Of a DNA stretch of 64,000 nucleotides, positions 11,808 to 60,500 are shown piece by piece (the first letter of the stretch is position 1; every line of letters starts with the position of its first letter). The translations under genes were made by a program, and so were the position numbers. The notes under the pieces are model-generated. The model did not search any database, was not told where the DNA came from, and was given only the letters and a program-made list of their open reading frames with translations. The DNA is from Fontisphaera persica (GTDB lineage: Bacteria; Verrucomicrobiota; Verrucomicrobiia; Limisphaerales; Fontisphaeraceae), in the NCBI RefSeq assembly GCF_024832785.1, contig NZ_CP116615.1, positions 3,534,001-3,598,000 on the forward strand. The letters run 5' to 3'.

Positions 11808-12078
11808 AACAACCCAAAACCAACCCGCAACCACGGCCTCCGGGCCGCCTCGCCAGTTTTTGCAAAAAATTTCAAAAAAATTTTTCCAGGTCACGAGCCA
11901 AAAACCCCCAAAAAGGGGGGGCTCGTGACCTGAGTCATAAATCACTGATGGAGAGCAAGATGCTCATACTTGAGAAAATCTGTATCGTTAAAGAAGCAAA
12001 CAACGTGCCAACTCAAAAATGGCCTCGTGACCTGGAAAACACTTGCGCCCTTGCGCCAGAATGGGTTATAAAGGCGCT
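11808..12078 (+). promoter_or_regulatory. probable CRISPR leader
   Basis: This 271-bp gene-free stretch abuts the first CRISPR repeat and is much more AT-rich than the surrounding genes, with A and T runs. It ends with TTATAAAGGCGCT directly before repeat 1. It is assigned as leader because the opposite end of the array carries a truncated repeat, and because the repeat's 3' end gives a canonical-looking 8-nt crRNA handle (ATGGAGAC) when read on this strand. It contains the hairpin at 11887-11932 and a further copy of the same CTCGTGACCTGG motif at 12024-12035. Confidence 0.65.
11887..11932. terminator. long hairpin in the leader region, terminator-like
   Basis: A perfect 13-bp stem (CAGGTCACGAGCC at 11887-11899, GGCTCGTGACCTG at 11920-11932) encloses a second CCCCC/GGGGG stem with an A5 loop. 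On the minus strand the stem is followed by AAAAATTTTTTT, so it could stop transcription running left out of the array. On the plus strand the flank is weak. It could instead be a protein-binding site of the leader. Confidence 0.55.
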
Positions 12079-15000
12079 GTCGGGAACGCGGTGAATGCCG
12101 AAAGGCAATGGAGACAGCCGCTCGGCGGCACAGGCGAACCGAAGTAAGCTCAGCCGGTCGGGAACGCGGTGAATGCCGAAAGGCAATGGAGACAGTTGGC
12201 GGATTTCATCCGCCTCAAGCCCCTCTACAAATTGGTCGGGAACGCGGTGAATGCCGAAAGGCAATGGAGACGGAAATTTTAATTAGCGTTGAAAACAGGG
12301 AAAGAGTCGGGAACGCGGTGAATGCCGAAAGGCAATGGAGACCGCTCGGCGGCGCAGGCGAATCTCAGGAGACTCAGTCTCCGTCGGGAACGCGGTGAAT
12401 GCCGAAAGGCAATGGAGACAAGTGTATCCCTGGATTTTCTTCAGAGACTCCAACAGCCCCCGTCGGGAACGCGGTGAATGCCGAAAGGCAATGGAGACGC
12501 GGATTCCGCCGAATCCACTCCGATAATGCGGAGTCCTCCGTCGGGAACGCGGTGAATGCCGAAAGGCAATGGAGACGTCATTGCGAGGAGCTTTACTCCT
12601 CCGGGAGTGGATTCCTGTCGGGAATGCGGTGAATGCCGAAAGGCAATGGCGACCCGCCAGCTGGCGGATTTCTTCCGCCGTAAGCCCCTCTGTCGGGAAT
12701 GCGGTGAATGCCGAAAGGCAATGGAGACTCTCCCTCATCAGTTGCTTGTTCAAGTCACCCATTCTCGTCGGGAACGCGGTGAATGCCGAAAGGCAATGGA
12801 GACGAAATGCTCCGCCGCAGTCTCCATTGTTCAAGACCATCCCGTCGGGAACGCGGTGAATGCCGAAAGGCAATGGAGACATTAAGCTGGCGGTATCTTC
12901 CGCCAGCTGCTGGACTTCAGGTCGGGAACGCGGTGAATGCCGAAAGGCAATGGAGACTCAGGGGGACGTTGGCGAGCCGTCCCCCAAACCGGGGAGCGGC
13001 GTCGGGAACGCGGTGAATGCCGAAAGGCAATGGAGACATTTCTTGCCCTTGCCCTTGCTTTCGGCGGAAATGCTCCGGTCGGGAACGCGGTGAATGCCGA
13101 AAGGCAATGGAGACGTCTCCATTGCTCCAGGCCATCCCTGCAAGAAGCAGGGTCGGGAACGCGGTGAATGCCGAAAGGCAATGGAGACCGTACTATAAGC
13201 CTTGTTAAGGATTGTCCACAAGCAGCGCGTCGGGAACGCGGTGAATGCCGAAAGGCAATGGAGACGCCTTTAATAATAACCACGGCACCTGCGGCCTGTG
13301 CCAGTCGGGAACGCGGTGAATGCCGAAAGGCAATGGAGACTTGCCTCTCGAAAGTTTTGGCTTTTTGACCGCCGAAGCCGGTCGGGAACGCGGTGAATGC
13401 CGAAAGGCAATGGAGACTCCCAAACTCCTTTAGCTCTTTTTAACAGAATCACTCGGCAGTCGGGAACGCGGTGAATGCCGAAAGGCAATGGAGACTATTT
13501 GCCCTTGCCTTTGACCGTGGCGGCGGCAACCTGGTCGGGAACGCGGTGAATGCCGAAAGGCAATGGAGACCGCCTTAGACTCCCTGGCGGCTGTCGGAGG
13601 CCTCCGGGAGGTCGGGAACGCGGTGAATGCCGAAAGGCAATGGAGACTAGTTGCTAGACTTAGTGGAGTGGATTTCTCCGGACCCGTCGGGAACGCGGTG
13701 AATGCCGAAAGGCAATGGAGACAACTGAAATTACTCTAACGCCACTTGCTTTCGTCTTTTGGGAGTCGGGAACGCGGTGAATGCCGAAAGGCAATGGAGA
13801 CGCCGTGCTGAGTGCCTTATTCAGCACAGTCCAAATGCGTCGGGAACGCGGTGAATGCCGAAAGGCAATGGAGACACGCTTCCCTGGCGCTGTTGACTTC
13901 GCTCCGTGTTAGCTTTCGTCGGGAACGCGGTGAATGCCGAAAGGCAATGGAGACGCAGGGATGCCTTTAATAGTGACCTCGACTCCGGCCGCCTGGTCGG
14001 GAACGCGGTGAATGCCGAAAGGCAATGGAGACATACACGCCCCAAATGTGGGCGTTTGGGTCTCACCACGTGTCGGGAACGCGGTGAATGCCGAAAGGCA
14101 ATGGAGACCCCAACGAGCGGGTCTTACCCACCGGAGTCCCTGAAGCGTGTCGGGAACGCGGTGAATGCCGAAAGGCAATGGAGACCGGCACACGCAAAAC
14201 GTAGCAAACTTAGCCGCCAGTTGGGTCGGGAACGCGGTGAATGCCGAAAGGCAATGGAGACTGACTTCAGGGTCAAGGGCGCTTAGCTCCTCACAGTATG
14301 CGAGTCGGGAACGCGGTGAATGCCGAAAGGCAATGGAGACCGCGCTCAGCCGCTCGGCGGCGCAAGCGAACCTCAATAGGGTCGGGAACGCGGTGAATGC
14401 CGAAAGGCAATGGAGACTCTTCTGCGATGCACTCACCGAACGTGGGCGTGGGGATTTGTCGGGAACGCGGTGAATGCCGAAAGGCAATGGAGACACAGCA
14501 AAACCGCAATAAGCTTAGCCGCCAGTTTGCGGTTGTCGGGAACGCGGTGAATGCCGAAAGGCAATGGAGACACGGCCACGTCAAAACAATGCTTGGATAG
14601 AGGCAGATTATGTCGGGAACGCGGTGAATGCCGAAAGGCAATGGAGACAAGACTAATCCGCCAGTTGGCGGCGATGGGCATTGTGGCCAGTCGGGAACGC
14701 GGTGAATGCCGAAAGGCAATGGAGACAATGAGAGCCGCCAATTGGCGGCCAGAGGAGTAGAGATAAGTCGGGAACGCGGTGAATGCCGAAAGGCAATGGA
14801 GACAGAGGGTGTGGCCCTTGGTGTTGTCTATAACTCCAATCCAGGGTCGGGAACGCGGTGAATGCCGAAAGGCAATGGAGACGCCAGCACTTCATCGGGC
14901 GGATTGAAAACCCCGGCAGCAAGTCGGGAACGCGGTGAATGCCGAAAGGCAATGGAGACTGCAAGGTCAAGCGCGGGTACTGTGCCGCCAAGTCTGTCGG

Positions 15001-15704
15001 GAACGCGGTGAATGCCGAAAGGCAATGGAGACCGGAGGCGGCGGTGTGTCGAGATCTTCGAGGCTGCTGGTCGGGAACGCGGTGAATGCCGAAAGGCAAT
15101 GGAGACCATTGGCCCAGTAGATTCCCCCACCATAGAAAACCCAGAGTCGGGAACGCGGTGAATGCCGAAAGGCAATGGAGACTCAACATATAACTTTGGT
15201 GTGATAGTCACCATAAGTTTGTCGGGAACGCGGTGAATGCCGAAAGGCAATGGAGACGGAGCGGGCCGAAATGACTTCCTCGCTGGCTGCGTTTATGGTC
15301 GGGAACGCGGTGAATGCCGAAAGGCAATGGAGACACCTCGCAGTCAAAACCATATCGAACTCATGCCACCAGGGTCGGGAACGCGGTGAATGCCGAAAGG
15401 CAATGGAGACCAGTGCTGACCGCCTCAATGAACTGTTCGAGGAGGCCAACGTCGGGAACGCGGTGAATGCCGAAAGGCAATGGAGACTCCGCGATTGAAA
15501 CTGTGGACTTGCTCTCAGGAGCCTTGTCGGGAACGCGGTGAATGCCGAAAGGCAATGGAGACATCGGCTTCTTTCAGCACCAGTTTTGATTGCTTCAAAG
15601 GTCGGGAACGCGGTGAATGCCGAAAGGCAATGGAGACTTATCGAGGTTCTCCACAAGGTTGATAGCTATCAACTGCGTCGGGAACGCGGTGAATGCCGAA
15701 AGGC
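12079..15704 (+). CRISPR. CRISPR array, 48 repeats (last one truncated), 47 spacers, 37-bp repeat
   Basis: The 37-bp repeat starts GTCGGGAACG and ends GCAATGGAGAC. It contains a TGCC-GAAA-GGCA hairpin with a GNRA tetraloop. I counted repeats starting at 12079, 12157, 12235 and so on to 15601, with a 28-base remnant at 15677. Spacers are 34-43 nt (mostly 38-42). Repeats are identical except repeat 8 at 12617 (C9T, A34C) and repeat 9 at 12692 (C9T). The 37-nt repeat, variable spacer length and ATGGAGAC handle fit type III or a related type I system, but the type cannot be fixed without cas genes, and none is in the window. Many open frames across this region are only repeat translations, not genes. 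Confidence 0.98.
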
Positions 15705-16480
15705 GGAGAAGTGTTCAGTGTTCAGTTAGCAGTGTTCAGTAAGAAATGATTGTCGGCAGCGCTGGGGGAAGCGGAGACGTAAAGAAGTTTCAAGTTTGAA
15801 GTTTCAAGTTTCAAGTTTGAAGCGATAGCCCCTTCCCCCTCGCTCAAGGCAACCGGAAGGACTGAACACTGAACACTGAAAACTGAACACTCCCGTGCAC
15901 GCCGCCAGGCGTGCCGGGGCAAACTCCCCTCCGCAGGAGGGGGGAGTGAATGCCGAAAGGCGGAGAAGTGTTCAGTGTTCAGTTAGCAGTGTTCAGTAAG
16001 AAATGATTGTCGGCAGCGCTGGGGGAAGCGGAGACGTAAAGAAGTTTCAAGTTTGAAGTTTCAAGTTTCAAGTTTGAAGCGATAGCCCCTTCCCCCTCGC
16101 TCAAGGCAACCGGAAGGACTGAAAACTGAAAACTGAAAACTGAACACTCCCGCGCACGCCGCCAGGCGTGCCGGGGCAAACTCCCCTCCGCAGGAGGGGG
16201 GAGTGAATGCCGAAAGGCGGAGAAGTGTTCAGTGTTCAGTTAGCAGTGTTCAGTAAGAAATGGTTGTCGGCGGCGCTGGGGGAAGAGGAGACGTAAAGAA
16301 GTTTCAAGTTTCAAGTTTCAAGTTGGAAGTGAAGAGGCCGCCGCCTTTGCTCATGGCGTTAGGGGGGCATCTTGAAACTTGACACTTGAAACTTGTAACT
16401 CCCCTCCGCAGGAGGGGAACGACTGAAAACTGAACACTCCCGCGCACGCCGCCAGGCGTGCCGGGGCAAACTCCCCCCCC
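15689..16480. repeat. three tandem copies of a 257-bp unit fused to the CRISPR terminal repeat
   Basis: Units start at 15689, 15946 and 16203. The first two are 257 bp and nearly identical; the third has diverged and is partly rearranged. Each begins with GTGAATGCCGAAAGGC, which is bases 13-28 of the CRISPR repeat, followed by GGAGAAG, a block of GTTCAGTGTTCAGT heptamer repeats, a block of AAGTTTCAAGTTT repeats, and hairpins around GCACGCC-GCCA-GGCGTGC and CCCCTCC-GCA-GGAGGGG. No coding potential is visible. This fills the gap between the array and mqnE. Confidence 0.9.
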
Positions 16481-45778: not shown

Positions 45779-48700
45779 TCAGGGCACCACGATGCGGAAG
45801 AAGCCGCGGTCGCTCAGGTTCAACGGCACCGAGAACGTGCTCGACGGCCCGGTGAGCACGTTGGTGGAGAGCCGCAGCCATTGCACCAAATTGGTGGAGG
45901 CTTCCAGGTAGTACACGCTGCCCGGCTGGCCCGTGATGGTCAATTGCAACTGGCCGCCTGTGGCCACCACACCACCAAACGAAGGCGGAGTCGCGGGACT
46001 CACCCCCACCACCACGCGGGCCAGGTTGTTGTCCGCCGCCGGGTCAGCGACGCTGCTCACCACCGTGGCGAGGTTGGTCAGCACGCCCGGATTCGGGCAG
46101 TTGACCACCAGGGTCAGGGTGGCCGAGGCGCCCACCGCCAGATTGCCCACGTTCAGGGTGACAAGATTGCTTGCGATGACCGGCGCGCCCACCGACGCGC
46201 TCGCATTGACCAGGGTGGTACCCACCGGCAGGCGGTTGGTCACCACAATCCCCTGCGCCGCCACCGGGCCGCCATTCTGCACCGTGATGGTGTAGGTGAC
46301 GTTGCTGTTGGCCACCAGGTTGGCCGTGGAGGCAGTGGCCGCCACCGCCACGTCGGCCGCGGGCGCGAAGTTCTCCACCGTGCTGATTTCGAGGCTCCAG
46401 CCGCCGGCAATCAAGCCCACGTCCGGCGAGGCCATATCCTGCACGTACAAGGCCCACACACCGTTGGGATTGGTGCCGTTGAAGACGGCCAGCACATTAT
46501 TGGTGGCGGACGGCAACGCCGGCGCCGGCGCCGGGAAGGCCAGGCTGAAGTAATTGGTGGGGCGATACCGGCCCGTGGTGACGGCCGCGTTGGCCGGCAG
46601 CGCGTTGGTGGCCGTGTCATCAAAGGTCAGCGTCACGCCCTGCAAGGCATTCTCCCAGCCGCCAATGGCGTAACCCATCAACACCACGCGCTGGCCCTGC
46701 GGGCCGACGAGCATCATGCTGATGTCGCGCGGGAAGGCATGGGAGAGATTGCTCACCGTGACGGTGACCTTGCCCACGCTGCCGTTGAGGCCCGTCACGT
46801 TGATGAGGGACGGATACGGCGTGGCCGGGGCGTCATCCACAATGGTGATGGGATTGGCATTGGCAAAGCGGGTGGTGCGCGCCCCCACCTGCAGGTCAAA
46901 GGTCACCGTGCCCGCGTCCTGCGCGCCATCCTGCAACCGCAAGGTGGCCCGCACCAGGCCGCCGTTGGTCGCGCCCACCGTGAAGGTAAAGGCGCGGCTG
47001 ACCGAAACCCCGCCCGGCAGGAGCAGCCCGTAGGTTTGCGCCGCGCCCGGATTCACCACGCCATTGGTGGGCAGGAGCGTCGCCACCACGTTGGAGGCCG
47101 CCACGTTGCCGATGTTGCGCAACGCCAGCCGCACCGTCACCGTCTCGCCCTGGTCCAGCGAGCCATTGACCGGCCCGCTCTCCGAGACCAGCGCTGCCGC
47201 CACCGGCACGATGATGCTGTCGTCGTCATCCAGTATGGTGAGCACCGCCGCCCCCTGCACAATGGTGGCCCCGCGCGACGGGAAGGTCAGCGCGATGTTC
47301 ACCGTGCGCGCGCCGTCCTTCACCTGGTTCTGGTGGATGGGGATGCTCACGGTCTTCTGGCTTTCATTGGCGCTGAAGAACAGCGTGAAATTCGTCGGCG
47401 CGTAATGCGTCCCCGGCACGGCCGTGCCGCCACCCACGCTGAAGTTCACCGAGGCCGGCGCGCCCAGGCTGCCGGTGCGGCGCACCACAATGACCGCAGC
47501 GCCGCCGCCTTCGCTGACGGAGTAGGCGGTCGCGCTCAAGGACAGGTAACTGTCATTGTCCACAATGGTCAGCACCGCGTTGCTGCGCGCCCCTATCTGC
47601 GCGCCCAGCGAGGCGCCAAACAATTGCAGATTCAACGTCTTGTTGGCATTGGTCACCGCGTTGTCGGTGATGGGCACCACGATGTTTTTCACCGCTTCAT
47701 TGGTGCCAAAGACCAGCGTGCCGCTGACCGGCGTGTAATCCGAGCCGGGCACAGCCGTCCCGCCGCCGGTGCTGTAGCCCACGGTGGCCACCGCCGTGAG
47801 GCCGCCCAGCCGCTCGACCGCGATGCTGGCGGTTCCCGCATCCTCATTGACCAGGTAGGTGGAGGCGGTGAACTGGATAAGCGATTCATTGTCCAAAATG
47901 GTCACCACCGCCGTGGACGGCTCGGCCAGCGTCGCGCCGTCCCGCGGATTCACCAGCCGCAAGACCACCGTCTCCGGCCCTTCCACCTCGAAGTCGTCAT
48001 ACACCCAGAGCCAAAAGTTGGTGACGAGCTGGCCGTCCCCAAAAACCATCATGTTGGTGATGCCCTCATAATCCAGACCGGCCGTGGCGGTGCCGCCGCC
48101 GCTGACCAAATCCACCCGCACCTGACCCGTGCTGCCATTGGTGCGCACCACTGTGATATAGGAAAGGAACCCGCCTTCCGCTGCCTCATACGTTGTCGCG
48201 GAGAAACGGAACGCGCCCGGCGTCAAATCGTCATCCAGAATCGTCAGTTCGGCCTGGCTGTTCAAAAAGTCGAGGCTCGCGCCGCCTTGCGGATTGGACA
48301 ATACCAGCAGCACCGTTTCGTTGCCTTCCGACAGGCTGTCGTCCAGCACCCGCACCGGGAAGCTCTTGGCGGTCTCGCCATCGGCAAACTGCAAAGTGCC
48401 GCTGGCCACCACAAAATCGGCCCCGGCCGTGGCGCTGCCGGGCAACACCTGATAATCCACCGCCACAATGCCCAGGCTGCCGTTGGTGCGCTGCACGGTA
48501 ATGTTGACCACACCGGCATTCTCCGCGGCCTGGTAGGTAAGCACCGGGAAGCCCAGCACGCCCGGACCAAAGTCATTGTCCACAATGGTCAGCGTGGCGT
48601 TGGTCATGCCCAAGATGGCATTGACCGGATTTGACAGGCGAATGTCCACCGTTTCATTGCCCTCAATCAGGGTGTCGTCAAAAATCTGTATGGTGAGGGT

Positions 48701-51700
48701 GGCCCGCGTCTGGCCATCCAGGAAGAACAACGTGCCGGACACCGCCTGGTAATCCGCGCCCCCGTCCGCCGTCCCGCCGCCCACCGTGTAATCCACCAGC
48801 GCGATGCCAAAGGTGCTGCCGCTGCGCTCCACCTCCACCTGCGCGAAGCCGGCGCCTTCGTTGACACTGTAATTGACCTGCGCGAAGCGAATCACCGCAT
48901 CGTCCTCCTCAATCTGCACCGTGGCGGAACTCTGCGGCCCCAATTCCGCCCCGCCCTGCGGGTTGGACAAGGTCACGCGGAAGGTGCGGCCGCTGCCGCT
49001 CACCTGGTCATCATAGACCGGCACCGTGAAGGTCCGCACCGTCTCCCCGTCGCCAAACGTCAACGTGCCGCTGACCGCCGTGTAATGCACGCCCGCGCGC
49101 GCCGTGCCGTCGCTGGTGGCGTAATCCACCGACACGCTGCCCGCGGTGCCCACGTTGCGCACCACGGTAATCACAGCGTTCGACGCATTCTCCGCCACCG
49201 TGAAGCTGGCCACCGCGAAGCTGAAAGCGCCCGGCCCGCGGTTGAAGCCGTTGTTCAGGCGGGTCAGGTAGGCCTGCCGCACACCGTTGAAGGTCTGGAA
49301 GCCGCCCGCCACCACAATGCGCTGGTCCGCCTGCAAGGCCACGGCGCTGACGTAATTATCCGCCCCGGTCCCGATGTTGAAGCTGGTGTCCACCGCCCCG
49401 TTGGCCAGCAGGCGCGTCAGCCGGCTGCGCGGATAGCCGTTGAAGGAGGTGAAGGCGCCGCCCACCAAAATCCGGCCGTCGGGCTGCAGCGCAATCGAGT
49501 TCACAAATTCATCCGCGCCGCCCCCCGGATTGAATTCCAGGTCCAGCGCCCCGCTGGGCAGCAACCGGGCGATGCGCCCGCGGCTGACGCCGGAGACGGT
49601 GGTAAAGAGACCGCCCATGAGCACCCGGTTCTCGGCGTCCACCACCACCGACCGCACGGAGCCTTCCGGTCCCGCGCCCGGATTGAACGTGGTATCCACC
49701 ATGCCGCTGGCCAGCAGCCGCGCCACTCGCGCCCGCGGCAAACCGCCCACGTGCGTGAAATCACCGCCAATGACAATGCGGCCATCGGACTGCACGGCAA
49801 TGGCCCGCACCGGAGCGTCCGGCCCTTCGCCGAAGCCGAAGGAGAAGTCGGCCACACCGTTGGTGTTGAGCCGGACCAGGTAGCTGCGTTGCGTGAAGCC
49901 CACCCGCGTAAAGAGGCCACCCACCAAGATGCGGCCATCCGGCTGCACATAAAGCGCATTCACCGCGTTGTCCAACTGCGCGTTGAAGGTGGGGTCCACC
50001 GCGCCGTCCGGGAGCAACCGCACCAGATAAGAATTGGTGCTCGTGCCAAAGCCGGTGAACGAGCCGCCCACATAGGCCCGGCCGTCCTCCAGCGCCACCA
50101 TGGCCCGAACCACGCCATTGGACGGCCCCACGCCGACGTTATAGACCGTGTCCAGCGTGCCGTTGAGATTCAGCCGCGCCACATTGCTGCGCGCGATGCC
50201 GTCCACCATGGTGAAGGTGCCGCCGATGTAAATCTTGTTTTCGCCGTTGGTCTGCACGTACAGCGCATCCACCGAGCCATTGATGAAGGGCGCAAAGCCC
50301 ACATTGACCGAGCCGGCCACAGGGCTGCTCTCGGTGATGGTGAGCACGGCGTTGGTGATGGCGCCCAGGCCGGCGTTGGTGGGATTGAACAAGCTCAGGC
50401 GCACCGTCTTGTTCAAATCCGCCCCGGCCAGCTCAATGAGCGGCACCACGATGCTGCCGGTGACCTGGCCATTGGTCAGCACCAGCGTGCCGGACACCGC
50501 CTGGTAGTGCACCCCCGCCACCCCTGAGCCGTCCGCCGTGGCATAGTCCACCGACACCTCGCCCAGCCAGCCATTGGTGCGCAGGACGGTAATCACGGCG
50601 TTGGTGCTGTTTTCCGCCACCGTGTATTGCGCGGAGGCAAACGTCAGGAAGCCCGGCCCCACGCTGCTGTCCAGAATGGTCAGGGTGGCCTGCGCAGGCG
50701 CGCCCAGGGTGGCGCCGCCGAGGGCATTGGACAAAACCAAACCCACGGTCAAATCACCTTCCACCGCATTGTTGCTCAACACGGTCACGAAGAACGTCTT
50801 GGGCGTGGCATCCCCGTTGAGCCACGTCAGCACGCCATTGGTGGGCACGTAATTCACCCCCGGCTGAGCCGTACCCGTGGTGGTGGCGTAGGCCACGCTG
50901 ATGTTGCCCACCGCGCCATAACGGCGGTTGACCGTGATGGCCACCACGCCGCTGGTCTCGCTGCCCGCAAAGTTGGTGGCGGCAAACGCCAGATTGCCGT
51001 TCAGCAGCGGCGTCTCCAGAATGGTCACCGTCGCCTGATTCAAGTTGCCCAGGGTCACCCCGGCGGCGCCGCGCGCGTTGGCCAGGCGCACCAGGAACAC
51101 TTCATTGGTCTCCGCCAGGAAATCCTGCAGGATGGGCACGCTGAAGCTCTTGACCGTTTCGCCGTCGGCGAAGGATAGCGTGCCCGAGCGCGGCGCATAA
51201 TCGGCGCCCGCCTGCGCGGTGAAGTCGGCCGTGGCATAATCCACGGCCACCACCCCGCTGCTGCCGCCCGTGCGCACCACCCGAATCACCAGATTGGTTT
51301 CGTATTCATTGACCACATACGTGGGGAACTCAAAGTTGAGCGTGCCCGCCGCGAAGTCATTGTCGCGAAGGGTCAAGGTGGCCACCGCTTGGCCCAGCAC
51401 GGAGTTGCCCGAGGGATTGCTCAGGGCCAATAACACCGTCTCGTCCCCTTCCGCGCGGTTGTCGTCCTGCAGGGTGACAAAGTAATACTTGACGGTCTCG
51501 CCCGGGAGGAAGGTCAGCGTCGTGGCCGAGGCGGTATAATCGCTGCCAGCCGTGGCGGTGCCGCCGGCCACTTCAATGTCCACCGCGGCAAAGTTGTTGG
51601 TGGCGCCGGTGCGTCTCACTGTGATGACTGCAAAGCCGCTGGGCACGTTTTCATTCACCACAAAGTCCGCCTCGGCAAAGCCAATCAGGTTGTCATCACT

Positions 51701-54700
51701 GATAATCACCAGTTGGGCATTCACCTGGGCATCCAGCTCCGCCGCCGTGCCCAAGGTGATATTGGTGGGGTTGCTGAGCGCCAGATTCACCGTCTCCGCC
51801 GCCTCCACCTCGTTGTCGTTGATGATGGGCACCTCAAAGGTCTGCAACACTTCACCCGGCGGGAACACCAGCTCGCCGCTGACCGGCAGGTAGTCATTCG
51901 GCCCGGCCGTGCCGCCCGGCACCGTGGCATAGGCCACGCGCACCTCGTTGGACAAGCCCCAGTTGCGGCGCACCGTGACGACGGCATTGGTCACGTTTTC
52001 ATCCTGGTAAAACGCCGCCGCCAGAAACTCCAGCCGCCCGGACCCATAATTCCGGTGGCCAATGATGCGCGCCAGATAGGCCCGCGGCACGCCGTTGAAG
52101 CTCAAGAAGCCGCCGCCAATCACAATCTGGTCATCCGATTGATTCACCACGGCCGCGATGTGCGCATCGGCGCCCGTGCCAAAATTAATCGTCAAATCAT
52201 TGGCGCCATCGTCCATCAACCGGGTGATGCGGCTGCGGAACACGTCATTGAACCGCAGGAAATCACCCACCACCACCACCTTGCCGTCACTCTGGAGCGA
52301 AAGGCCAAACACCGCCCCGTCCGCCCCGGACAGGCCAGCCAGGAAGTTGGTGTCCAGCGCGCCGCTGGGCAGCAGCCGCGCCACGTGGCCGCGCGGCTGG
52401 TTGTCCACCGCGGTGAACAAGCCGCCAATGACGATGCGCCCGTCCTCCTGCACGGCAATGGCGCGCACTGAATCATTCGGGCCGAGGCCCGGGTCAAACG
52501 CCGCGTCTGGTGTGCCGTCGGGATTCACCCGCACGAGGTGATTGCGCGGCAGGCCGCGGTACTTGGTGAAAGTGCCGCCCACCAGCAGTTTGCCGTCCGG
52601 TTGATATGCCACCGCGTACACCGGTCCATTGGGGCCGGTGCCCGGATTAAAGCTGAGCTGCAACGTGCCGTTGGTGTCCAGCACTGCCAGACTGGGCCGC
52701 TCCACGCCGTTGAACGTGTTGAACGACCCGCCAACGGCCACCCGTCCATCCGGATGCACCGCCAGCGCATACACCGGGTTGTTGGCGCCCGTGCCGCGGG
52801 CAAAGAAGCTGTCCAGCCGCCCGTCACTGTTCAGGCGGGCCACCCCGAAGCGGTTGGTCACGTCAAACCGGCTGAAACGGCCGCCCACCAGAATCTTGCC
52901 ATCCGCCTGCACGGCCACCGCATGAACCGTGTCATTGAAGCCCTGCAGCGGGTCAAAAGTGGCGTCCAGCGCCCCATTGACATGCAGCCGGGCAATGCGG
53001 TTGCGCGGCTGGCCGTTCACACTGGTGAAGTCGCCGCCCACAATGAGCTTGCCATCCCGTTGGACCGCCAGCGCCCGCACAAAATTGTCAATGCCCGGGC
53101 TGGCGTTGAAGATGGTGTCCACCCAACCGGCCGACAAATTATATGACTCGAAGTCAACGATCATCAGCACGGCGCTGGCATTCGCCCCCAGCCCGGCTTT
53201 GGCGGGGTTGCTGAGCCGCAAGCCCAGCATCCGGTTCCCCTCCAGCGCCGGATGGTAAAGGATGGGCACGGTAAAGGTCTTTGGCAGCACATCGCCGTCC
53301 TCCCACACCAGCACCCCTGAAGTCCCCATGTAATGCACGCCTTCCACGGCGGCGTCCGGGCCGGTCAACGTCTCAGTGGCGTATTCCACGGTGACGCGCC
53401 CGCTGCGCCCGCCGCGGCGCACCACCGTCAGCGTGGCCAGCGGCTCCTGTTCATTAATCGCAAAGCGCGGCTGCAGGAATTCCAGCGTGCCGTAGGCGTC
53501 ATCGTCCAAAAGATTGACCACCGCGCTGGTAATGATGCCCAACTGCGAATACGTGCCGGCGTTGGTGGCCAGCAGCACCTGGAATTGCTCGGGGCCCTCC
53601 ACCAAATCATCCGGCAGCAACGGCACCAGCAGGGTCTTGGCGGTCTCTCCATGCGCAAAGAACAGCAGATTGGTGGACGCCACAAAATCCGCTCCCGCCA
53701 GCCCCGCGCCGTTGGTCAGCCCGGGAATTTCCCGCACGATGACCTGCACCACCTGCGTGCTGAGCGCGCCGCCCGTGCGCCGCACCGTGATGGGCACGGC
53801 ATTGGTGCTTTCGCTGATGAAATATTCATGCGAGCTGAAGCTCAAGCTGCCCCGGCCATTGTCATTGTCGGTGATGATGAGTGTGGCCGTGTCGCGCCCC
53901 AGGGTGGCGCCGCCCAGCGGGTTGAACAAATACAGCAGCACCGTTTCTTCCGGCTCCAGGGCGGTGTCATTGAGAATGGGCACGCGGAAGGTCAGGTTGG
54001 TCACCCCCGCCGCAAAGGTCAGCACGCCGCTGGCCAGCGTGTAATCGGCGTTGCGCGTGGCCGTGCCGTCCAGGGTGATATACTGCACTGACACACTGCC
54101 ATTGGAGCCGTTGGTGCGGGTTACGGTAATCACCGCATTGGTGCCATCCTCGGCCACATAATAATAAGGGGTGGCAAATCCCAGCACCCCATTCTCGAAA
54201 TCATTGTCCACAATGGTCACCCGGGCCACTGTCTGGAAGCCAAAAGCATGAAGGGCCGAATTGGTGGAGAATCGGGCCGGAATTTCAAACACGAGGGAAA
54301 ACTCGCGATTCCCATCGCGCACCTGATTGTCCAGGATGGGCACCTGCACCAGCACGCTGCCCCCCTCGCAACCAGACCAAGCCACCCTCTGGCGAATCGG
54401 CTGATAATCCACCCCCGCCACAGCGCTCCCATCCACCGTGTACACCACCCCCGTGACTGCCCCCAGCACGCCAAACTGGCGGGTCACATCCACATAAACC
54501 AGGACGGTGGACGCATTTTCATCCACCGTGTACTCCGTGCGCACAATCTGGATGTTGCCCCGGCGGTTGTTTTCGGGCGGGGTGATGCCCCCCACCAGCA
54601 GCGTGTAGTTGTGTTGTACGCGCACATCCTGCGCCGAGAAGCCGCCGCCCACTCTATCAAAACGCCCACCCACCAGCACCGAACCATCGGCCGGGTCCAC

Positions 54701-57412
54701 TGCCAGTGCGCGGATATTGCCCGGAATATACACATCGGGGAAGGGAGTGGCTTGATACACACCCGGCAGGGTCTGGTTGTAGTAATTATCCAGGAAGCTG
54801 GTATCCACCGTCCCATCGGCGTGCAGGCGGGCCATGTTGGTGCGCGCCGTCCCATTCACCGCGGTAAACTCACCCGCAATGTACGCCTGGCCATTGGTAT
54901 TGAAGGCCATGGCGTACACCGGACCGTCCGGGCCGTAACCCGCATTAAACGTGGCATCCAAGGCCCCATCCGCCGTCAAGCGCACCACTCCACGGCGGTC
55001 AAACACCCCCACGCGGTCAAAGTTGCCGCCCACCAAAATGCGATTATCCGGCTGCACCAGCAACGCATAGACGGTGTTGTCGGGATAGGTATCGGTGGCA
55101 AAGGTGGCATCCACCGTGCCGTTGTTATTCAAACGCGCCAGCCGCGCCCGCGGAGCGCCGCCAATGGAGGTGAAATCGCCGCCCACAATCACCTTCGCGG
55201 TGCTGCCCCGCGGCGCAATGTTCAGCGAGAGATTGTAGAAGCTCACCGGCGCGTTGGTGCGCTCATTGACCACCACCTCCAGCAGCGTGGACGTGCCCAG
55301 CCCGAACTCCAACTGCGCCTGCCCGCTGGTGTTGGTGCCGCTGTCGAACAACAACTGATTGTCATAATACACCTTCACGAGGCCTGAGTAGCCATTGGTC
55401 GGCGCATTGGTGACGGGCAGCACAAAAACATTGTAATTCAACGTGAAACTGCCCACCACCGCCGTGGCATTGATGTTGGTGCGGAACTCATTCGAGCCAA
55501 ACCCGCTGAAGTTCACCGTGAACGGCGCGGGCGGTTGGATGGCCAGCGCCCAGACGGTGTCATTGGCGCCCGGGGCCGGGTCAAAGTTCAAATCCAGCGA
55601 GCCGTCATCATTCAACCGGGCCAGGTTGCGCCGCGGGACGGAATTGTACGTCTCAAAATCGCCGCCAATCAGGATTTTGTTGTCATCCAAAATCAACAGC
55701 GTGCGAATCACGCCGGGCGTCACGCCGCCCAGCATCTGCGCCCCGTTGCCCGGGAAGAAGGTGGCATCCACGGAGCCATTGCGATTGAGACGCACAATGC
55801 CGTTGCGCGGCTGGCCGTTGAAGGAAGTGAAAGCGCCCGCCACCAGCACCTTGCCGGCCTGGGTGGAGCGCGGCGGATACGCCGCCACGGCAAACACGGA
55901 GCCGTTGGCCCCCTCGCCCGGATTCCACGTGGTGTCCAGTTCTCCGAAAATATCCACCCGCGCCACACCATTGCGCGGCACGCTGTTCACCGCGGTGAAA
56001 TCCCCACCGATGATGGCCCCGCCCTCATGCCAGGCCAGGGCATAGACGTTGTTATTGGCGCCGGGATTGGGCACAAAGATGGTGGAAGGATTATAGGAGC
56101 TCCGAGTGCCCGCTACATTAACCGAGCCAGCGCCGGCCGGCTGGTCGTCGAAATCTATGACCACGTAATAATCACGCGCCTGCGTGTTCACCGTCGGCCG
56201 GTTCTGGTTGCCGCCGGTGGGCCGCGGATTCTCAAGCGTGATGATAAATGTCTCCGGCAGTTCCACCCAGATGTCATCGCGAATGGCAATCTCAAAAGTC
56301 TTGGGCTGGCGGTCGTTGTCGCCCCAGTTCAGCGTTCCCACCAGCGAATTGGGTCCAGTGGTGGCATTAGGGGTCACTAAATGGAGATCGTTCAAGACAT
56401 TGGTGGGATTATCCACGTCATAGTAGGCATTGGTGGTGCCCGGACAAGGGCTCCCCACCAGCACCCGGTAATCCACCGCGATGCTGCCTGAACCGCACGG
56501 CCGCTCCACCTGGAAGGTGAGGTTGTACACCCCGTCCCTTGAAGGCTCGCCCACCACCCGCGGCGGATAAATCAAGGGATAGATAAATCCCACCATGCCC
56601 GCCGGGCTGTCATCGTCGTCAATCCGCACCACGGAGTTGGTCATGCGGATGATGGCCTCGCCAAAGCTCACAATGGGATTGGACAATTCATTGGTGAAAG
56701 TCTCATACCGCACCGGCGGCAGGTTGGTGGCAATGGTGTTGGTCTCCACGTTGCAATCGTCCACCAGCGGCAGGGTGAGGATATTGGTCACCTGGCCATC
56801 CGCAAAAAACAGCGTAATCCCCAACGGATGCCCCAGATAGTCCTCGGTGTCCGTCGCCGAGCCGTCAATGGTCTTGAAATCCACCGTCGCCGGCCCGTTG
56901 GTGTTGCCCCGCCGCAGCACCACCACCTCCACAAAATTCGATTCCTCCGACACCCGGTAAATATCGGTGGAAAACAGGAAAATCGTATCCCGGTCCATCA
57001 CGTGCACCACCACTTCGGTTTGCGGCCCCAGCAGGCCATTGACGGGGTTCGAGAGGGTGATGCGCAGGCGCAGCGTCCCCTCAATGTTGGTGTTGCTGAG
57101 GGTGTTGAGATTCAGCAAGGCAATGGGCGAGCCGTTGAACTGGAGGGTGCCATTGGCCGGCGTGCTGGGCGCCAGCTTGTTCATGGCGCCGGGGTCCAAG
57201 GGCGTGATGCTGTAACTCACACTCGCATTGGCCGCCGGCTGGCAGGTCAATACAATCGCCAGGCTGTTCCCTTCAAACACGCTCAGGTTGGTCACGGCAA
57301 ACTGGATTTCACTCTGCGCCGCGGCGGGGGTCACCCACCCCAGACCGCAGGCCAGCGCCGCCAGGCCCGTTCGCCAGAAACCAGCCACTACTTTTTTCCA
57401 CACCGTTCGCAT
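45779..57412 (-). CDS. giant secreted Calx-beta / delta-60 repeat protein, 3877 aa
   Basis: A signal peptide (TGLAALACGLGWVTPAAAQ) opens the protein. Three Calx-beta-like domains follow (to about 435), then seven delta-60 repeats (about 440-935), four Calx-beta (about 950-1420), seven delta-60 (about 1422-1790), five Calx-beta (about 1795-2365), seven delta-60 (about 2367-2725) and six Calx-beta (about 2730-3400). After a CARDB-like segment come a proprotein-convertase P-domain (about 3510-3680), a DUF11-like domain (to about 3785) and a C-terminal Ig-like module ending GFFRIVVP. Calx-beta domains often bind calcium, and delta-60 repeats follow the pattern VxALAVQxDGKIxVGGxF. A role in adhesion or the cell surface is likely, but no enzyme domain is visible. 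One delta-60 unit in block 1 (about 627-737) is split by an inserted beta-domain. Confidence 0.93.
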   Translation of the reverse strand: MRTVWKKVVAGFWRTGLAALACGLGWVTPAAAQSEIQFAVTNLSVFEGNSLAIVLTCQPAANASVSYSITPLDPGAMNKLAPSTPANGTLQFNGSPIALLNLNTLSNTNIEGTLRLRITLSNPVNGLLGPQTEVVVHVMDRDTIFLFSTDIYRVSEESNFVEVVVLRRGNTNGPATVDFKTIDGSATDTEDYLGHPLGITLFFADGQVTNILTLPLVDDCNVETNTIATNLPPVRYETFTNELSNPIVSFGEAIIRMTNSVVRIDDDDSPAGMVGFIYPLIYPPRVVGEPSRDGVYNLTFQVERPCGSGSIAVDYRVLVGSPCPGTTNAYYDVDNPTNVLNDLHLVTPNATTGPNSLVGTLNWGDNDRQPKTFEIAIRDDIWVELPETFIITLENPRPTGGNQNRPTVNTQARDYYVVIDFDDQPAGAGSVNVAGTRSSYNPSTIFVPNPGANNNVYALAWHEGGAIIGGDFTAVNSVPRNGVARVDIFGELDTTWNPGEGANGSVFAVAAYPPRSTQAGKVLVAGAFTSFNGQPRNGIVRLNRNGSVDATFFPGNGAQMLGGVTPGVIRTLLILDDNKILIGGDFETYNSVPRRNLARLNDDGSLDLNFDPAPGANDTVWALAIQPPAPFTVNFSGFGSNEFRTNINATAVVGSFTLNYNVFVLPVTNAPTNGYSGLVKVYYDNQLLFDSGTNTSGQAQLEFGLGTSTLLEVVVNERTNAPVSFYNLSLNIAPRGSTAKVIVGGDFTSIGGAPRARLARLNNNGTVDATFATDTYPDNTVYALLVQPDNRILVGGNFDRVGVFDRRGVVRLTADGALDATFNAGYGPDGPVYAMAFNTNGQAYIAGEFTAVNGTARTNMARLHADGTVDTSFLDNYYNQTLPGVYQATPFPDVYIPGNIRALAVDPADGSVLVGGRFDRVGGGFSAQDVRVQHNYTLLVGGITPPENNRRGNIQIVRTEYTVDENASTVLVYVDVTRQFGVLGAVTGVVYTVDGSAVAGVDYQPIRQRVAWSGCEGGSVLVQVPILDNQVRDGNREFSLVFEIPARFSTNSALHAFGFQTVARVTIVDNDFENGVLGFATPYYYVAEDGTNAVITVTRTNGSNGSVSVQYITLDGTATRNADYTLASGVLTFAAGVTNLTFRVPILNDTALEPEETVLLYLFNPLGGATLGRDTATLIITDNDNGRGSLSFSSHEYFISESTNAVPITVRRTGGALSTQVVQVIVREIPGLTNGAGLAGADFVASTNLLFFAHGETAKTLLVPLLPDDLVEGPEQFQVLLATNAGTYSQLGIITSAVVNLLDDDAYGTLEFLQPRFAINEQEPLATLTVVRRGGRSGRVTVEYATETLTGPDAAVEGVHYMGTSGVLVWEDGDVLPKTFTVPILYHPALEGNRMLGLRLSNPAKAGLGANASAVLMIVDFESYNLSAGWVDTIFNASPGIDNFVRALAVQRDGKLIVGGDFTSVNGQPRNRIARLHVNGALDATFDPLQGFNDTVHAVAVQADGKILVGGRFSRFDVTNRFGVARLNSDGRLDSFFARGTGANNPVYALAVHPDGRVAVGGSFNTFNGVERPSLAVLDTNGTLQLSFNPGTGPNGPVYAVAYQPDGKLLVGGTFTKYRGLPRNHLVRVNPDGTPDAAFDPGLGPNDSVRAIAVQEDGRIVIGGLFTAVDNQPRGHVARLLPSGALDTNFLAGLSGADGAVFGLSLQSDGKVVVVGDFLRFNDVFRSRITRLMDDGANDLTINFGTGADAHIAAVVNQSDDQIVIGGGFLSFNGVPRAYLARIIGHRNYGSGRLEFLAAAFYQDENVTNAVVTVRRNWGLSNEVRVAYATVPGGTAGPNDYLPVSGELVFPPGEVLQTFEVPIINDNEVEAAETVNLALSNPTNITLGTAAELDAQVNAQLVIISDDNLIGFAEADFVVNENVPSGFAVITVRRTGATNNFAAVDIEVAGGTATAGSDYTASATTLTFLPGETVKYYFVTLQDDNRAEGDETVLLALSNPSGNSVLGQAVATLTLRDNDFAAGTLNFEFPTYVVNEYETNLVIRVVRTGGSSGVVAVDYATADFTAQAGADYAPRSGTLSFADGETVKSFSVPILQDFLAETNEVFLVRLANARGAAGVTLGNLNQATVTILETPLLNGNLAFAATNFAGSETSGVVAITVNRRYGAVGNISVAYATTTGTAQPGVNYVPTNGVLTWLNGDATPKTFFVTVLSNNAVEGDLTVGLVLSNALGGATLGAPAQATLTILDSSVGPGFLTFASAQYTVAENSTNAVITVLRTNGWLGEVSVDYATADGSGVAGVHYQAVSGTLVLTNGQVTGSIVVPLIELAGADLNKTVRLSLFNPTNAGLGAITNAVLTITESSPVAGSVNVGFAPFINGSVDALYVQTNGENKIYIGGTFTMVDGIARSNVARLNLNGTLDTVYNVGVGPSNGVVRAMVALEDGRAYVGGSFTGFGTSTNSYLVRLLPDGAVDPTFNAQLDNAVNALYVQPDGRILVGGLFTRVGFTQRSYLVRLNTNGVADFSFGFGEGPDAPVRAIAVQSDGRIVIGGDFTHVGGLPRARVARLLASGMVDTTFNPGAGPEGSVRSVVVDAENRVLMGGLFTTVSGVSRGRIARLLPSGALDLEFNPGGGADEFVNSIALQPDGRILVGGAFTSFNGYPRSRLTRLLANGAVDTSFNIGTGADNYVSAVALQADQRIVVAGGFQTFNGVRQAYLTRLNNGFNRGPGAFSFAVASFTVAENASNAVITVVRNVGTAGSVSVDYATSDGTARAGVHYTAVSGTLTFGDGETVRTFTVPVYDDQVSGSGRTFRVTLSNPQGGAELGPQSSATVQIEEDDAVIRFAQVNYSVNEGAGFAQVEVERSGSTFGIALVDYTVGGGTADGGADYQAVSGTLFFLDGQTRATLTIQIFDDTLIEGNETVDIRLSNPVNAILGMTNATLTIVDNDFGPGVLGFPVLTYQAAENAGVVNITVQRTNGSLGIVAVDYQVLPGSATAGADFVVASGTLQFADGETAKSFPVRVLDDSLSEGNETVLLVLSNPQGGASLDFLNSQAELTILDDDLTPGAFRFSATTYEAAEGGFLSYITVVRTNGSTGQVRVDLVSGGGTATAGLDYEGITNMMVFGDGQLVTNFWLWVYDDFEVEGPETVVLRLVNPRDGATLAEPSTAVVTILDNESLIQFTASTYLVNEDAGTASIAVERLGGLTAVATVGYSTGGGTAVPGSDYTPVSGTLVFGTNEAVKNIVVPITDNAVTNANKTLNLQLFGASLGAQIGARSNAVLTIVDNDSYLSLSATAYSVSEGGGAAVIVVRRTGSLGAPASVNFSVGGGTAVPGTHYAPTNFTLFFSANESQKTVSIPIHQNQVKDGARTVNIALTFPSRGATIVQGAAVLTILDDDDSIIVPVAAALVSESGPVNGSLDQGETVTVRLALRNIGNVAASNVVATLLPTNGVVNPGAAQTYGLLLPGGVSVSRAFTFTVGATNGGLVRATLRLQDGAQDAGTVTFDLQVGARTTRFANANPITIVDDAPATPYPSLINVTGLNGSVGKVTVTVSNLSHAFPRDISMMLVGPQGQRVVLMGYAIGGWENALQGVTLTFDDTATNALPANAAVTTGRYRPTNYFSLAFPAPAPALPSATNNVLAVFNGTNPNGVWALYVQDMASPDVGLIAGGWSLEISTVENFAPAADVAVAATASTANLVANSNVTYTITVQNGGPVAAQGIVVTNRLPVGTTLVNASASVGAPVIASNLVTLNVGNLAVGASATLTLVVNCPNPGVLTNLATVVSSVADPAADNNLARVVVGVSPATPPSFGGVVATGGQLQLTITGQPGSVYYLEASTNLVQWLRLSTNVLTGPSSTFSVPLNLSDRGFFRIVVP

Positions 57413-57503: not shown

Positions 57504-60500
57504 CTATTGCTGGCGCAGCCGGAAAAACTTCCATTCGCTGCTCAACGGCAGCGTCACCACCCGCCGGCCCTCGCGGACCACCGGCGTCACATTCACCGGC
57601 GTCCATTGCGGATTGGCCGTCAATGACGCCGTGCCTTCGAGGGTGTACCCCGGCATATCATGCCAGGAAATCACCAGGTTGCCACCCTGAATCACCAGGC
57701 TCAGCTCCGGCGCGGTGGTGATGCGCAAATTCCATCCCCCCGCAATCACGCCCGCGTCCCCGCCCTGGCTGTCGTAGATGAACAGCCGCCAATCCCCGTT
57801 GGGATTGGCCCGGCGGAAGGCGCCCAGCGAGGTGGAAAACTGCGGCTGCACCACAAAACCCGCGCCGGGAAACCGGTTGGTGGGCGCCAGGTTGCCCGGC
57901 CGGTAGGCGCCGGTGTTCAACGGCTGGTCCAGCGGCAACGCCGCCGGCGCGTCATCCGCAAACAGCAGGGTCAATCCTTCGACATCATGACCGCCCCCCG
58001 CTCCGGCCATGAGCAGCACCTGCCGCCCGTCGGGCGACACCACCAGCGCGTGAATGTCCGCCGGGAACGAATGATTCACCCCCAGCAAGCTCACCTGGAC
58101 CTTGTCCACCACCCCCGTCAGGCCAAAGACCTGAACGGTCGCAGGATACGGGAGCGCCGCCGCGCCGTCGCGGATGATAATCTGGCCGGGGTTGAAATAG
58201 GAGCCCGGCAGCGCGGCCGTGCTGGACAGCGCCACGATATTGTTGCTCGTGTTCAAGTCGCTCATCGCGGAGCGCACATTAAAGGTCTGCCGCAACAACG
58301 CCTCCATCGTGGAGGCGGCCCGCAGCGTGGCCTGCGCGCTGCCTCGCCGCGCCAGGTCGCCCACATTCCAGGTAAACTCCTCCCCGGAAATGGTATAAGT
58401 GCCGGTGGACACGCTGACCGTGACATTGGTGAAGGCCGCCAGCAGCCGGGCCCGCACCACGGTGTTGCTGGCCACTTCCGGCCCGGCATTGGTCACCTGC
58501 AAGGTGTAGGTGAACGGCTGCCCCACCTGCGCCGTCTCAGGCGCCACCGTGCCCTCAATCCCCACATCCGCCACCGCACCCAGCGCGCCCCCCAGGCCGG
58601 CCACATAGACCGTGGTGTCCAGCGCGGAGTCGCTGGTGTCCGCCAGAATGAATGTCAACTTGTGCTCCGCCAATTCCGGATTCACCTGCGCCGTGAAGAC
58701 CATCACCGGGTTGGTTTCCCCCAACATGATGACCCCGTCCAGTTCCGTGCCCGGCACCACCATCATCGCCGGATGCCGGATGTTCACCGGCAGCCCGCCC
58801 GCGTACGCAATGTTTTCACCGTCCAGGTAGATGCCAAAACCGTCAATGAAGGGCGATTCCACATATTCCGGATACTCCTCCGAACCAAACATCACCTTGA
58901 ACGTCACGCGGTCATACCCCGGCAGGAACTCAAAATAAATGTCCAACTGGGTCACGTCGTAATGGGTGTACTCCTCCTCCTCCGAGGCGGTAATCGGGTC
59001 CAGCAGCAGCTCCTGCTCCGCGGTGGCGCCCACTTCATACGCCGTGGTGCGGCCGGTGTCCGTGTTCGCGCCGCTGCCATAATCCCCCACATGCCCCGTG
59101 CTCAACGCCACCCCCGACAGGGACTGACCACTGCCAAAGATATTGGCCGAGTTGAACAATCCCGTGCTCATCCGCGTGCCCCGCCGGTGCGCCATCAAGG
59201 AGGCACGCTTGACCTGGATGCCCGTGGACCCGCCCGTGAGCGCCGCCACTAGGGAAGTGACATTGGTGGTGGGCGTGATGACCAGTTCCCCGCCGCCCGC
59301 CCCCTGCAAAATCGGCGTAGTGATGGTGACGGTGTTGTTGGTCAGCACCGGATCATACGCCGGCGCCGTGATGCCCACTGTCCCCACCGCCACGGAGCCA
59401 GACCCCGGCACAAAGTCCACTTCCAAGGTGGCGCTCCCTCCCGCCAACAAATTCCCCACATTCCAGAAAACCACACTATTGGAAACCGAGGCGCCGCCCT
59501 GGCTGGGGAAAGAGCCCTGGAAACCCGCCCCCACCGGCAGATAACAGTACACGGTGACGTTGGACGCCAGCGACGGCCCGGCGTTTTGGGCCGTAATGCC
59601 GTAGGTCATCACCGAACCGGACGGCACCGGGCTGGCGGGCGCCGTCACACTCACCCGCACATCGGACGCCGGCGCGACGCGCAACACCGTCGCCACCTCA
59701 TTGGGGGTGGGATCCGCGCTCGAAGTCATCGCTGCCGTCCAGTTGGTCACCACCCCACCATCGCCCCACGGCCGGACCACAATGACCGCGTTCATCGAAA
59801 CGCCGTTGGCCAGGGAAGGCACCATGATGACCTGCGCATTGCTGGCGCTCAGGAAGGAGCCGGCACTGACGTTGCCCCGCAGGTATTGCACGTTGGCCGG
59901 CAGCCAGTTGGTAATCACGATGCCCGTCGCCGTCTGCGGCCCGTTATTGACCACCGTCAACCGCAACGACACCTCCTGCCCCGCATAAGCGTTGCTGGGC
60001 GAGGCGGTCATCTGCAGCGCAATGTCCGCCGCCGTGCTGGGCACCACCACCGTCTCCAGCGCCGCCAGGTTATCGGTCAAATTGTAATCATTTTGCGCGC
60101 TGACCGCATACGCAATGTTGGTCAACGTGCCCGAAGGCGGTGTCACCACCTGCACCAGCACCGTGGCCGCAGCGCCGATGGGCAGATTGCCCAGCCCAAA
60201 GACCCACACGTTGCCGGTATTTGTAGCGCTGCCGTGGACATTGGTCACCCCCACCAGGGTAACCTGGGGCGGCAGCCAGTTGGTCAACATCACCCCCGTG
60301 GCGTTCAACGTGCCGGCGTTTTCCACCTTGATTTCATAGCGCAGGGGGAAACTGCCATAGGGCACCGCCGGCACCGTGCGCACCGTCGTCACCAAATCCA
60401 CCACCGGCGTCGGATTCACCCGCGTGCCGCCCAGGGCAAAATTGTTCGCCGGATTGGGGTCCAAGATGGGGGTGGTGACGCTGGCCATGTTGGTCACGGC

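Follow-up and report, generated by a model that had tools for sequence, protein, structure and literature searches.

Type III-B spacers of Fontisphaera persica are concentrated on, and antisense to, two genes of an unseen invader

The CRISPR array considered here raises the question of why so many of its spacers resemble one another, and what kind of source and what kind of process could have left such a record. The array, designated W, occupies positions 12079..15713 (+ strand) of the window, the whole stretch of 64,000 nucleotides that was analysed; repeat and spacer parsing gave 48 repeats of 37 nt and 47 spacers of 34-43 nt. The same repeat was found at four places in the single 4.73 Mb contig, corresponding to arrays W, B, C and D, which carry 47, 27, 56 and 36 spacers, respectively (166 in total). 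A pattern search of the contig that allowed up to three mismatches counted repeats on both strands, 130 on one and 36 on the opposite one; array D was built of the same 37-nt unit, for the most part as a variant in which two bases are changed. Alignment (MAFFT) of the 400 nt upstream of each array revealed a nearly identical leader 5' of all four (11883..12078, + strand, at array W). All four arrays also had in common a terminal degenerate repeat, which in array W (15677..15713, + strand) diverged after position 15704 and marked the leader-distal end. The shared leader and the degenerate last repeat together gave the direction of the arrays, with the leader of array W at its low-coordinate end.

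The repeat, with up to three mismatches allowed, was absent from all 386 of the 386 other genomes of the phylum that were searched. The genome-contig collection contained one exact match to the repeat core, in a Verrucomicrobia MAG. Locus L037 (1375-1480), from a Verrucomicrobia groundwater MAG, held one exact repeat copy, one spacer and a decayed repeat, and is perhaps a vestigial array. At 15677-16000 of the window the trailer of array W was seen, a partial repeat with TTCAGTGTTCAGT repeats that recurred about 250 bases on; this trailer was common to all four arrays, which suggests array duplication. Elsewhere in the window there were two very large ORFs on the minus strand (45779-57412 and 57504-63071), of 3877 and 1855 aa.

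All spacers were aligned against one another, independently of any gene consensus; a local alignment score of at least 12 (+1/-1.5) defined a related pair, and shuffled spacer sets served as the null. Within array W there were 12 same-strand pairs, compared to none in three dinucleotide-shuffled sets. Over all 166 spacers there were 202 same-strand pairs and 28 opposite-strand pairs, compared to 1.5 and 2.0, respectively, expected from four shuffles. Most of the opposite-strand pairs (24 of 28) lay between spacers of the two genes described below, A and B, and two such pairs inside array W had a palindromic stretch in common. The initial annotation had read the array W spacers as diverged copies from loci that were sampled repeatedly; this reading was borne out by the scarcity of matching pairs in the shuffled controls, and the effect was larger over the four arrays. 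Among the groups that it had named, S2/S8 (29 of 33 bases identical in the local match), S1/S30 (23 of 25), S1/S4/S30, S10/S14, S16/S25 and S28/S32 passed the threshold; S26/S31, which were alike in translation only (TPTFG-x-C), fell below it at the DNA level. The S10/S13 pair was an 11-nt overlap, with adjacent placements in gene B. That reading missed that most of the groups sample one and the same pair of genes, as well as the three sister arrays.

Near-identical spacers were also found across arrays. W17 (13341-13380) was almost the same spacer as D34 in array D (locus L011), W11 was near-identical to C7, and W27 and B9 overlapped. In antisense translation, TPTFG-x-C was common to W26 (14033-14071) and W31 (14418-14457), and Y/F-GGG-I-Y was common to W40 and C41 in translation; both pairs are possible further target genes.

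When the reverse complements of the spacer groups were overlapped, they formed two ORFs with a start, a stop and near-continuous coverage. Gene A had approximately 95 codons (MGSLNEQM ... RRNPLH*) and was covered 2-6x from start to stop, most thinly at codons 12-16; gene B had 119 codons (MKKHERV ... KGKGKK*) and was covered 3-10x, most deeply over a broad region near nt 180-220. Translated placement at a score of at least 33 put 88 of the 166 spacers on these genes (28 on gene A and 60 on gene B), all 88 of them antisense and none sense; the expectation from shuffles was 0.6 per 166 at a score of 32 and 0.2 at 34. Since the consensus had been made from the same spacers, held-out tests were carried out, in which each array was compared with the consensus of the other three. 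These tests, which were fed by placements from the first consensus, gave 78 antisense spacers and one sense spacer in total, against nulls of 0-0.2 per array. The antisense counts were 20/47 in array W (plus the one sense spacer), 11/27 in B, 24/56 in C and 23/36 in D, with no sense spacers in B, C or D. A further 14 gene-end spacers were added by links or by reading (W16, B4, B10, B12, B15, B17, B19, B20, C5, C12, C25, D7; W7, D24), bringing the set to 102 of 166 spacers on approximately 0.7 kb. Both members of 199 of the 202 same-strand pairs fell within this set, one pair was half inside it and two lay outside. Genes A and B therefore account for about half to three fifths of the spacer slots of the four-array memory. 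As judged from sequence, the antisense orientation would let the guide RNA pair with the invader mRNA.

In array W, the spacers of this set all read as their target gene on the minus strand. Those antisense to gene B were W1 (12116..12156; RLSLLRFACAAER), W2 (12194..12234), W4 (12343..12382), W8 (12654..12691), W10 (12804..12843), W11 (12881..12920), W12 (12958..13000), W13 (13038..13077; Lys/Gly tail), W14 (13115..13151; PASCRDGLEQWR), W16 (13266..13303; sub-threshold, assigned by DNA similarity to W25 and C16), W19 (13496..13533; tail), W25 (13955..13995), W28 (14186..14224), W30 (14341..14380), W32 (14495..14534), W34 (14649..14689) and W35 (14727..14766). Those antisense to gene A were W6 (12499..12539), W9 (12729..12766; start codon region), W15 (13189..13228; RCLWTILNKAYST), W21 (13648..13685; stop codon region), W23 (13802..13838) and W24 (13876..13917); W7 (12577..12616), assigned by eye, probably represents gene A at its 3' end (RNPLPEE* and then a hairpin). 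The oldest, leader-distal section, W36-W47 (14804..15676, + strand), had no spacer placed on either gene. With the arrays pooled, gene A and B spacers were closer to the leader (Mann-Whitney p 1.9e-8); the leader half and the other half held 15/23 vs 7/24 in array W, 23/28 vs 8/28 in C and 14/18 vs 10/18 in D. The trend was not significant in array B (6/13 vs 5/14, p 0.13).

No clear PAM motif was found in the protospacer flanks. G was slightly enriched in the 3' flank (0.36-0.41 over its first four bases vs 0.31), which may reflect a weak acquisition preference. Gene B also held stretches of 10-12 bases resembling the 3' end of the repeat, one in sense and one as the complement just past the stop; six spacers (W10, W14, D10; C12, C25, D7) scored at least 10 for this likeness, compared to 0.7 in shuffles, and this could be chance at two homologous sites.

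The differences between overlapping spacers followed the codon pattern of real genes. Codon analysis was carried out on 233 overlapping pairs, after 11 of 244 with less than half identity had been dropped as probably shifted. Per site, 0.23, 0.12 and 0.45 differences were counted at the first, second and third codon positions, respectively, in agreement with the earlier claim that the changes favour third positions. The ratio of synonymous to non-synonymous codon changes was 706:450 in frame and collapsed to 74:1147 and 198:1045 in the shifted frames, which likewise upheld the view that these are homologous coding sequences. The excess at third positions indicates that the spacers are alleles of real genes and not copied spacers. 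Median identity across the overlap was 0.73; only 2 of 244 overlapping pairs were identical throughout it and another 14 had one or two mismatches, and up to seven distinct versions were seen at a single 18-base site in gene B. Under the assumption that all alleles are equally frequent, this figure of 2 in 244 would correspond, as a rough estimate, to a number of alleles on the order of one hundred.

Array D is flanked by cas1-cas2 on one side and by a type III-B effector operon on the other. PADLOC matches near it comprised Cas10b, Cmr1, Cmr3, Cmr4, Cmr5 and Cmr6, the effector set of a type III-B system, and CARF-HEPN (Csx1), CARF-PDDEXK, Cas1 and Cas2 were also present at this locus. The Cas10 ORF (972 aa) had GGDD from residue 686 and an N-terminal HD at 35-36, and the CARF-HEPN protein had the HEPN motif R-x6-H. 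An MzaA-like ORF adjoined cas10 (locus L015, 9748-10791).

A second, separate system on the same chromosome provided a comparison. It consisted of Cas9 (a 1137-aa ORF), Cas1 and 94 type II spacers of approximately 30 nt; at its locus (L016, 11256-18943) the array lay in two blocks with a 1.47 kb stretch between them, and the C-run and T-run lengths of its repeats were variable. Five related pairs were found among the 94 spacers, and one of the 94 (at L016 15656) matched gene A or B, namely gene B, in sense as the array is read here. When the type III spacers were trimmed to 30 nt, 77 of 166 were placed on the full consensus, which contains them (Fisher p 1.4e-17 vs type II); when they were both trimmed and held out, 54 of 166 were placed, all antisense, compared to 1 of 94 (p 2.4e-11). 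This comparison argues for an invader with genes A and B that exists in DNA form, and for a focus that is peculiar to the type III arrays; the type II system may, however, have recorded other invaders or other times, and one match is a small number.

The source of genes A and B was sought in several collections. There was nothing better than E 0.09 in Pfam, PHROGs, NCBIfam (gene B only) or PDB sequences, and phage and plasmid records gave no match at E ≤1. In IMG/VR, protein seed patterns gave 25, 117 and 13 stretches, none of them confirmed by tblastn, and five exact DNA patterns gave 0, 0, 0, 1 and 0 matches; the ORFs listed for the sole DNA-pattern match (L048) were unlike gene A. A protein seed pattern run on the genome-contig collection gave 361 stretches, none confirmed; seed scans of this kind demand exact seeds and can miss diverged relatives. 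Relatives were searched, own genome included, for gene B in 146 genomes and in 293 of the order, and for gene A in 293. Weak gene B matches in four other genomes of the order (E 0.0015-0.009) were taken as chance; two lay within a 1527-aa open frame and one had stops, and L050 was the one inspected, by its ORF list. Within the genome itself, 25 of 26 gene B places at E ≤1 were inside the arrays; the remaining place (3591426, E 0.23) had two stops and was taken as chance, and gene-level queries found neither gene outside the arrays beyond it. No source genome was thus found across the phage, plasmid, IMG/VR and genome-contig collections searched. In particular, matches to small phages (Microviridae, Leviviricetes) or small plasmids, which the initial annotation had predicted, were not confirmed in phage records, PHROGs, IMG/VR or plasmid records, RNA phages being covered as far as they are present in the phage, PHROGs and IMG/VR collections.

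An invader near 7 kb had also been proposed, from the number of related pairs. That formula assumes uniform sampling and fails because the sampling is strongly uneven, with 102 of 166 spacers on approximately 0.7 kb and only two related pairs among the other 64; nor is such an invader necessary given that 1 of 94 type II spacers fell on these genes. From the two pairs among the 64 we infer that the remainder of the source is much larger, or that there were many sources. Of the alternative that had been offered, acquisition strongly focused on hot spots, the strong focus itself was confirmed, on genes A and B.

The reading that we prefer, with a probability of about 0.68, is that selection retains those type III-B spacers that target two specific transcripts made by a diverse DNA invader. 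Ordinary Cas1-Cas2 would capture DNA fragments, from both strands and from many places, out of a large family of related DNA invaders, which may be phages or plasmids. Only cells with a crRNA that can pair to the right transcript would survive, and those cells would retain the spacer. Transcription of genes A and B probably comes first or is strong, or the two genes expose the invader in some other way, so that their transcripts would let Cmr/Cas10 act in time, by degradation and by cyclic-oligoadenylate signalling to the CARF nucleases; we infer in particular that they could be early genes. About one site in four differs between alleles, which is probably beyond the reach of one spacer and would lead to repeated recording, the same genes being recorded anew as new variants arrive. 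A more specific and much less probable proposal is that a highly diverse, as yet undescribed family of DNA phages has a conserved point of weakness in genes A and B, which might act as a pair in early takeover or in counter-defence. The arrays would then be a fossil series of a long arms race, in which protection hinged on silencing of both transcripts and synonymous divergence was driven by escape from the guides.

It is unlikely that the focus arises at acquisition, with a free DNA end, a terminal repeat or a hairpin-rich site favoured by Cas1-Cas2 and selection adding the strand bias only. Structure is present at one site: 8 of the 11 gene B stop-codon spacers (B4, B12, B13, B17, B20, C12, C25, D7) folded into a stem round the stop, with energies of -10.0 to -19.3 that lay below the means of simple shuffles (-3.7 to -8.8), and no such stem was seen in B10, B15 or D15. 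Structured, repeat-rich DNA has moreover been argued to be a possible preferred substrate of type III adaptation, in the part of a review drawn on here (PMC9048733). However, both ORFs were tiled from start to stop with no pile-up at one end, and the spacers of the Cas9 system in the same cell were without such focus, though that module may prefer otherwise.

Quite improbable, too, is a very small replicon of a few kb or less (a small phage, satellite or minimal plasmid), of which genes A and B would make up much of the genome, with strand selection stripping the sense spacers. The complete coverage of both genes would be expected from such a source, the earlier pair-count estimate pointed the same way, and neither gene had a match in phage records. 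More recurrences would be expected outside the two genes, however, than the few that were seen (W27/B9 and W17/D34 by DNA; W26/W31 and W40/C41 by eye), and had the type II spacers come from such a source, far more than 1 of 94 should have fallen on genes A and B.

That the spacers were drawn from RNA, either of RNA phages or of abundant transcripts, by a reverse transcriptase would agree with 88 of 88 placed spacers being antisense to mRNA, but is very improbable. A search of the whole genome with a single reverse transcriptase model, RVT_1, gave no match, compared to matches in 3 of 14 control genomes, and no reverse transcriptase was found fused to or beside Cas1 at the cas locus; Cas1 (373 aa) was matched by ordinary Cas1 models. 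A spacer of the Cas9 system matches gene B, which together with the absence of RVT_1 disfavours RNA phages, and an RT-Cas1 type III-B system is reported, in the part of the source used here, to accept either orientation (PMC5576922). Acquisition from DNA without a reverse transcriptase should bring both strands. Birth of the related spacers inside the arrays by duplication and divergence would account for the near-identical pairs W17/D34 and W11/C7 but is hardly credible, given start points that vary between spacers and changes that follow the 3>1>2 codon pattern of selected genes.

The preferred reading, selection on spacers against two transcripts, has counterparts in known systems, each described here from part of the source. 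In Thermus thermophilus, RT-free type III adaptation brings both strands; spacers against phage phiFa cluster in a narrow early region (genes 40-49) with strong strand bias, which was attributed to selection of resistant cells, while unique spacers are spread along the entire phage genome with no strong preference for one strand, and spacers against phage phiKo show strand bias with a more even distribution (PMC7515739). The present arrays resemble the phiFa case, as far as that account extends, in that no reverse transcriptase was found (RVT_1 only), the focus is narrow and the crRNAs are predicted to be complementary to transcripts. They differ from it in being a natural archive of four arrays and 166 spacers with many diverged alleles, known from sequence, and in the width of the focus: two ORFs and approximately 0.7 kb, less than the hot region of phiFa. 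On our analysis, the arrays fit the Thermus type of selection mechanism with a much narrower target; the evenness for phiKo and the spread of the unique spacers indicate that a two-gene focus is not a general outcome of type III immunity.

In staphylococcal type III-A, the portion of the study used here describes retained spacers as favouring early transcripts and growth-arrest spacers as poorly retained (PMC11708336). Those data come from laboratory infection with one phage and involve Csm6, whereas the system here is type III-B with Csx1 and CARF-PDDEXK. A survey of natural arrays, again as far as it was drawn on, gave type III a coding-strand (mRNA-complementary) bias of 65% on average and 88% in Moraxella III-B, and a larger proportion of unknown targets than any other type (PMC8482600); the mRNA-complementary preference is present in both cases, compared to 88 of 88 spacers on two genes here. 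No report of a natural type III archive focused on two genes was recognised in the open-access literature, covered mostly as titles and abstract openings. A process of this kind has been described before; what appears to be new is so extreme a case in nature, together with the two gene families.

The natural record in this organism agrees with the prediction from laboratory infections that arrays keep spacers against a few decisive transcripts. It is a case of extreme focus in one direction, with up to 102 of 166 spacers on approximately 0.7 kb and a built-in type II comparison on the same chromosome. Immune memory alone is enough to read both gene families of the unseen invader in full, and these may serve as probes for finding the invader.
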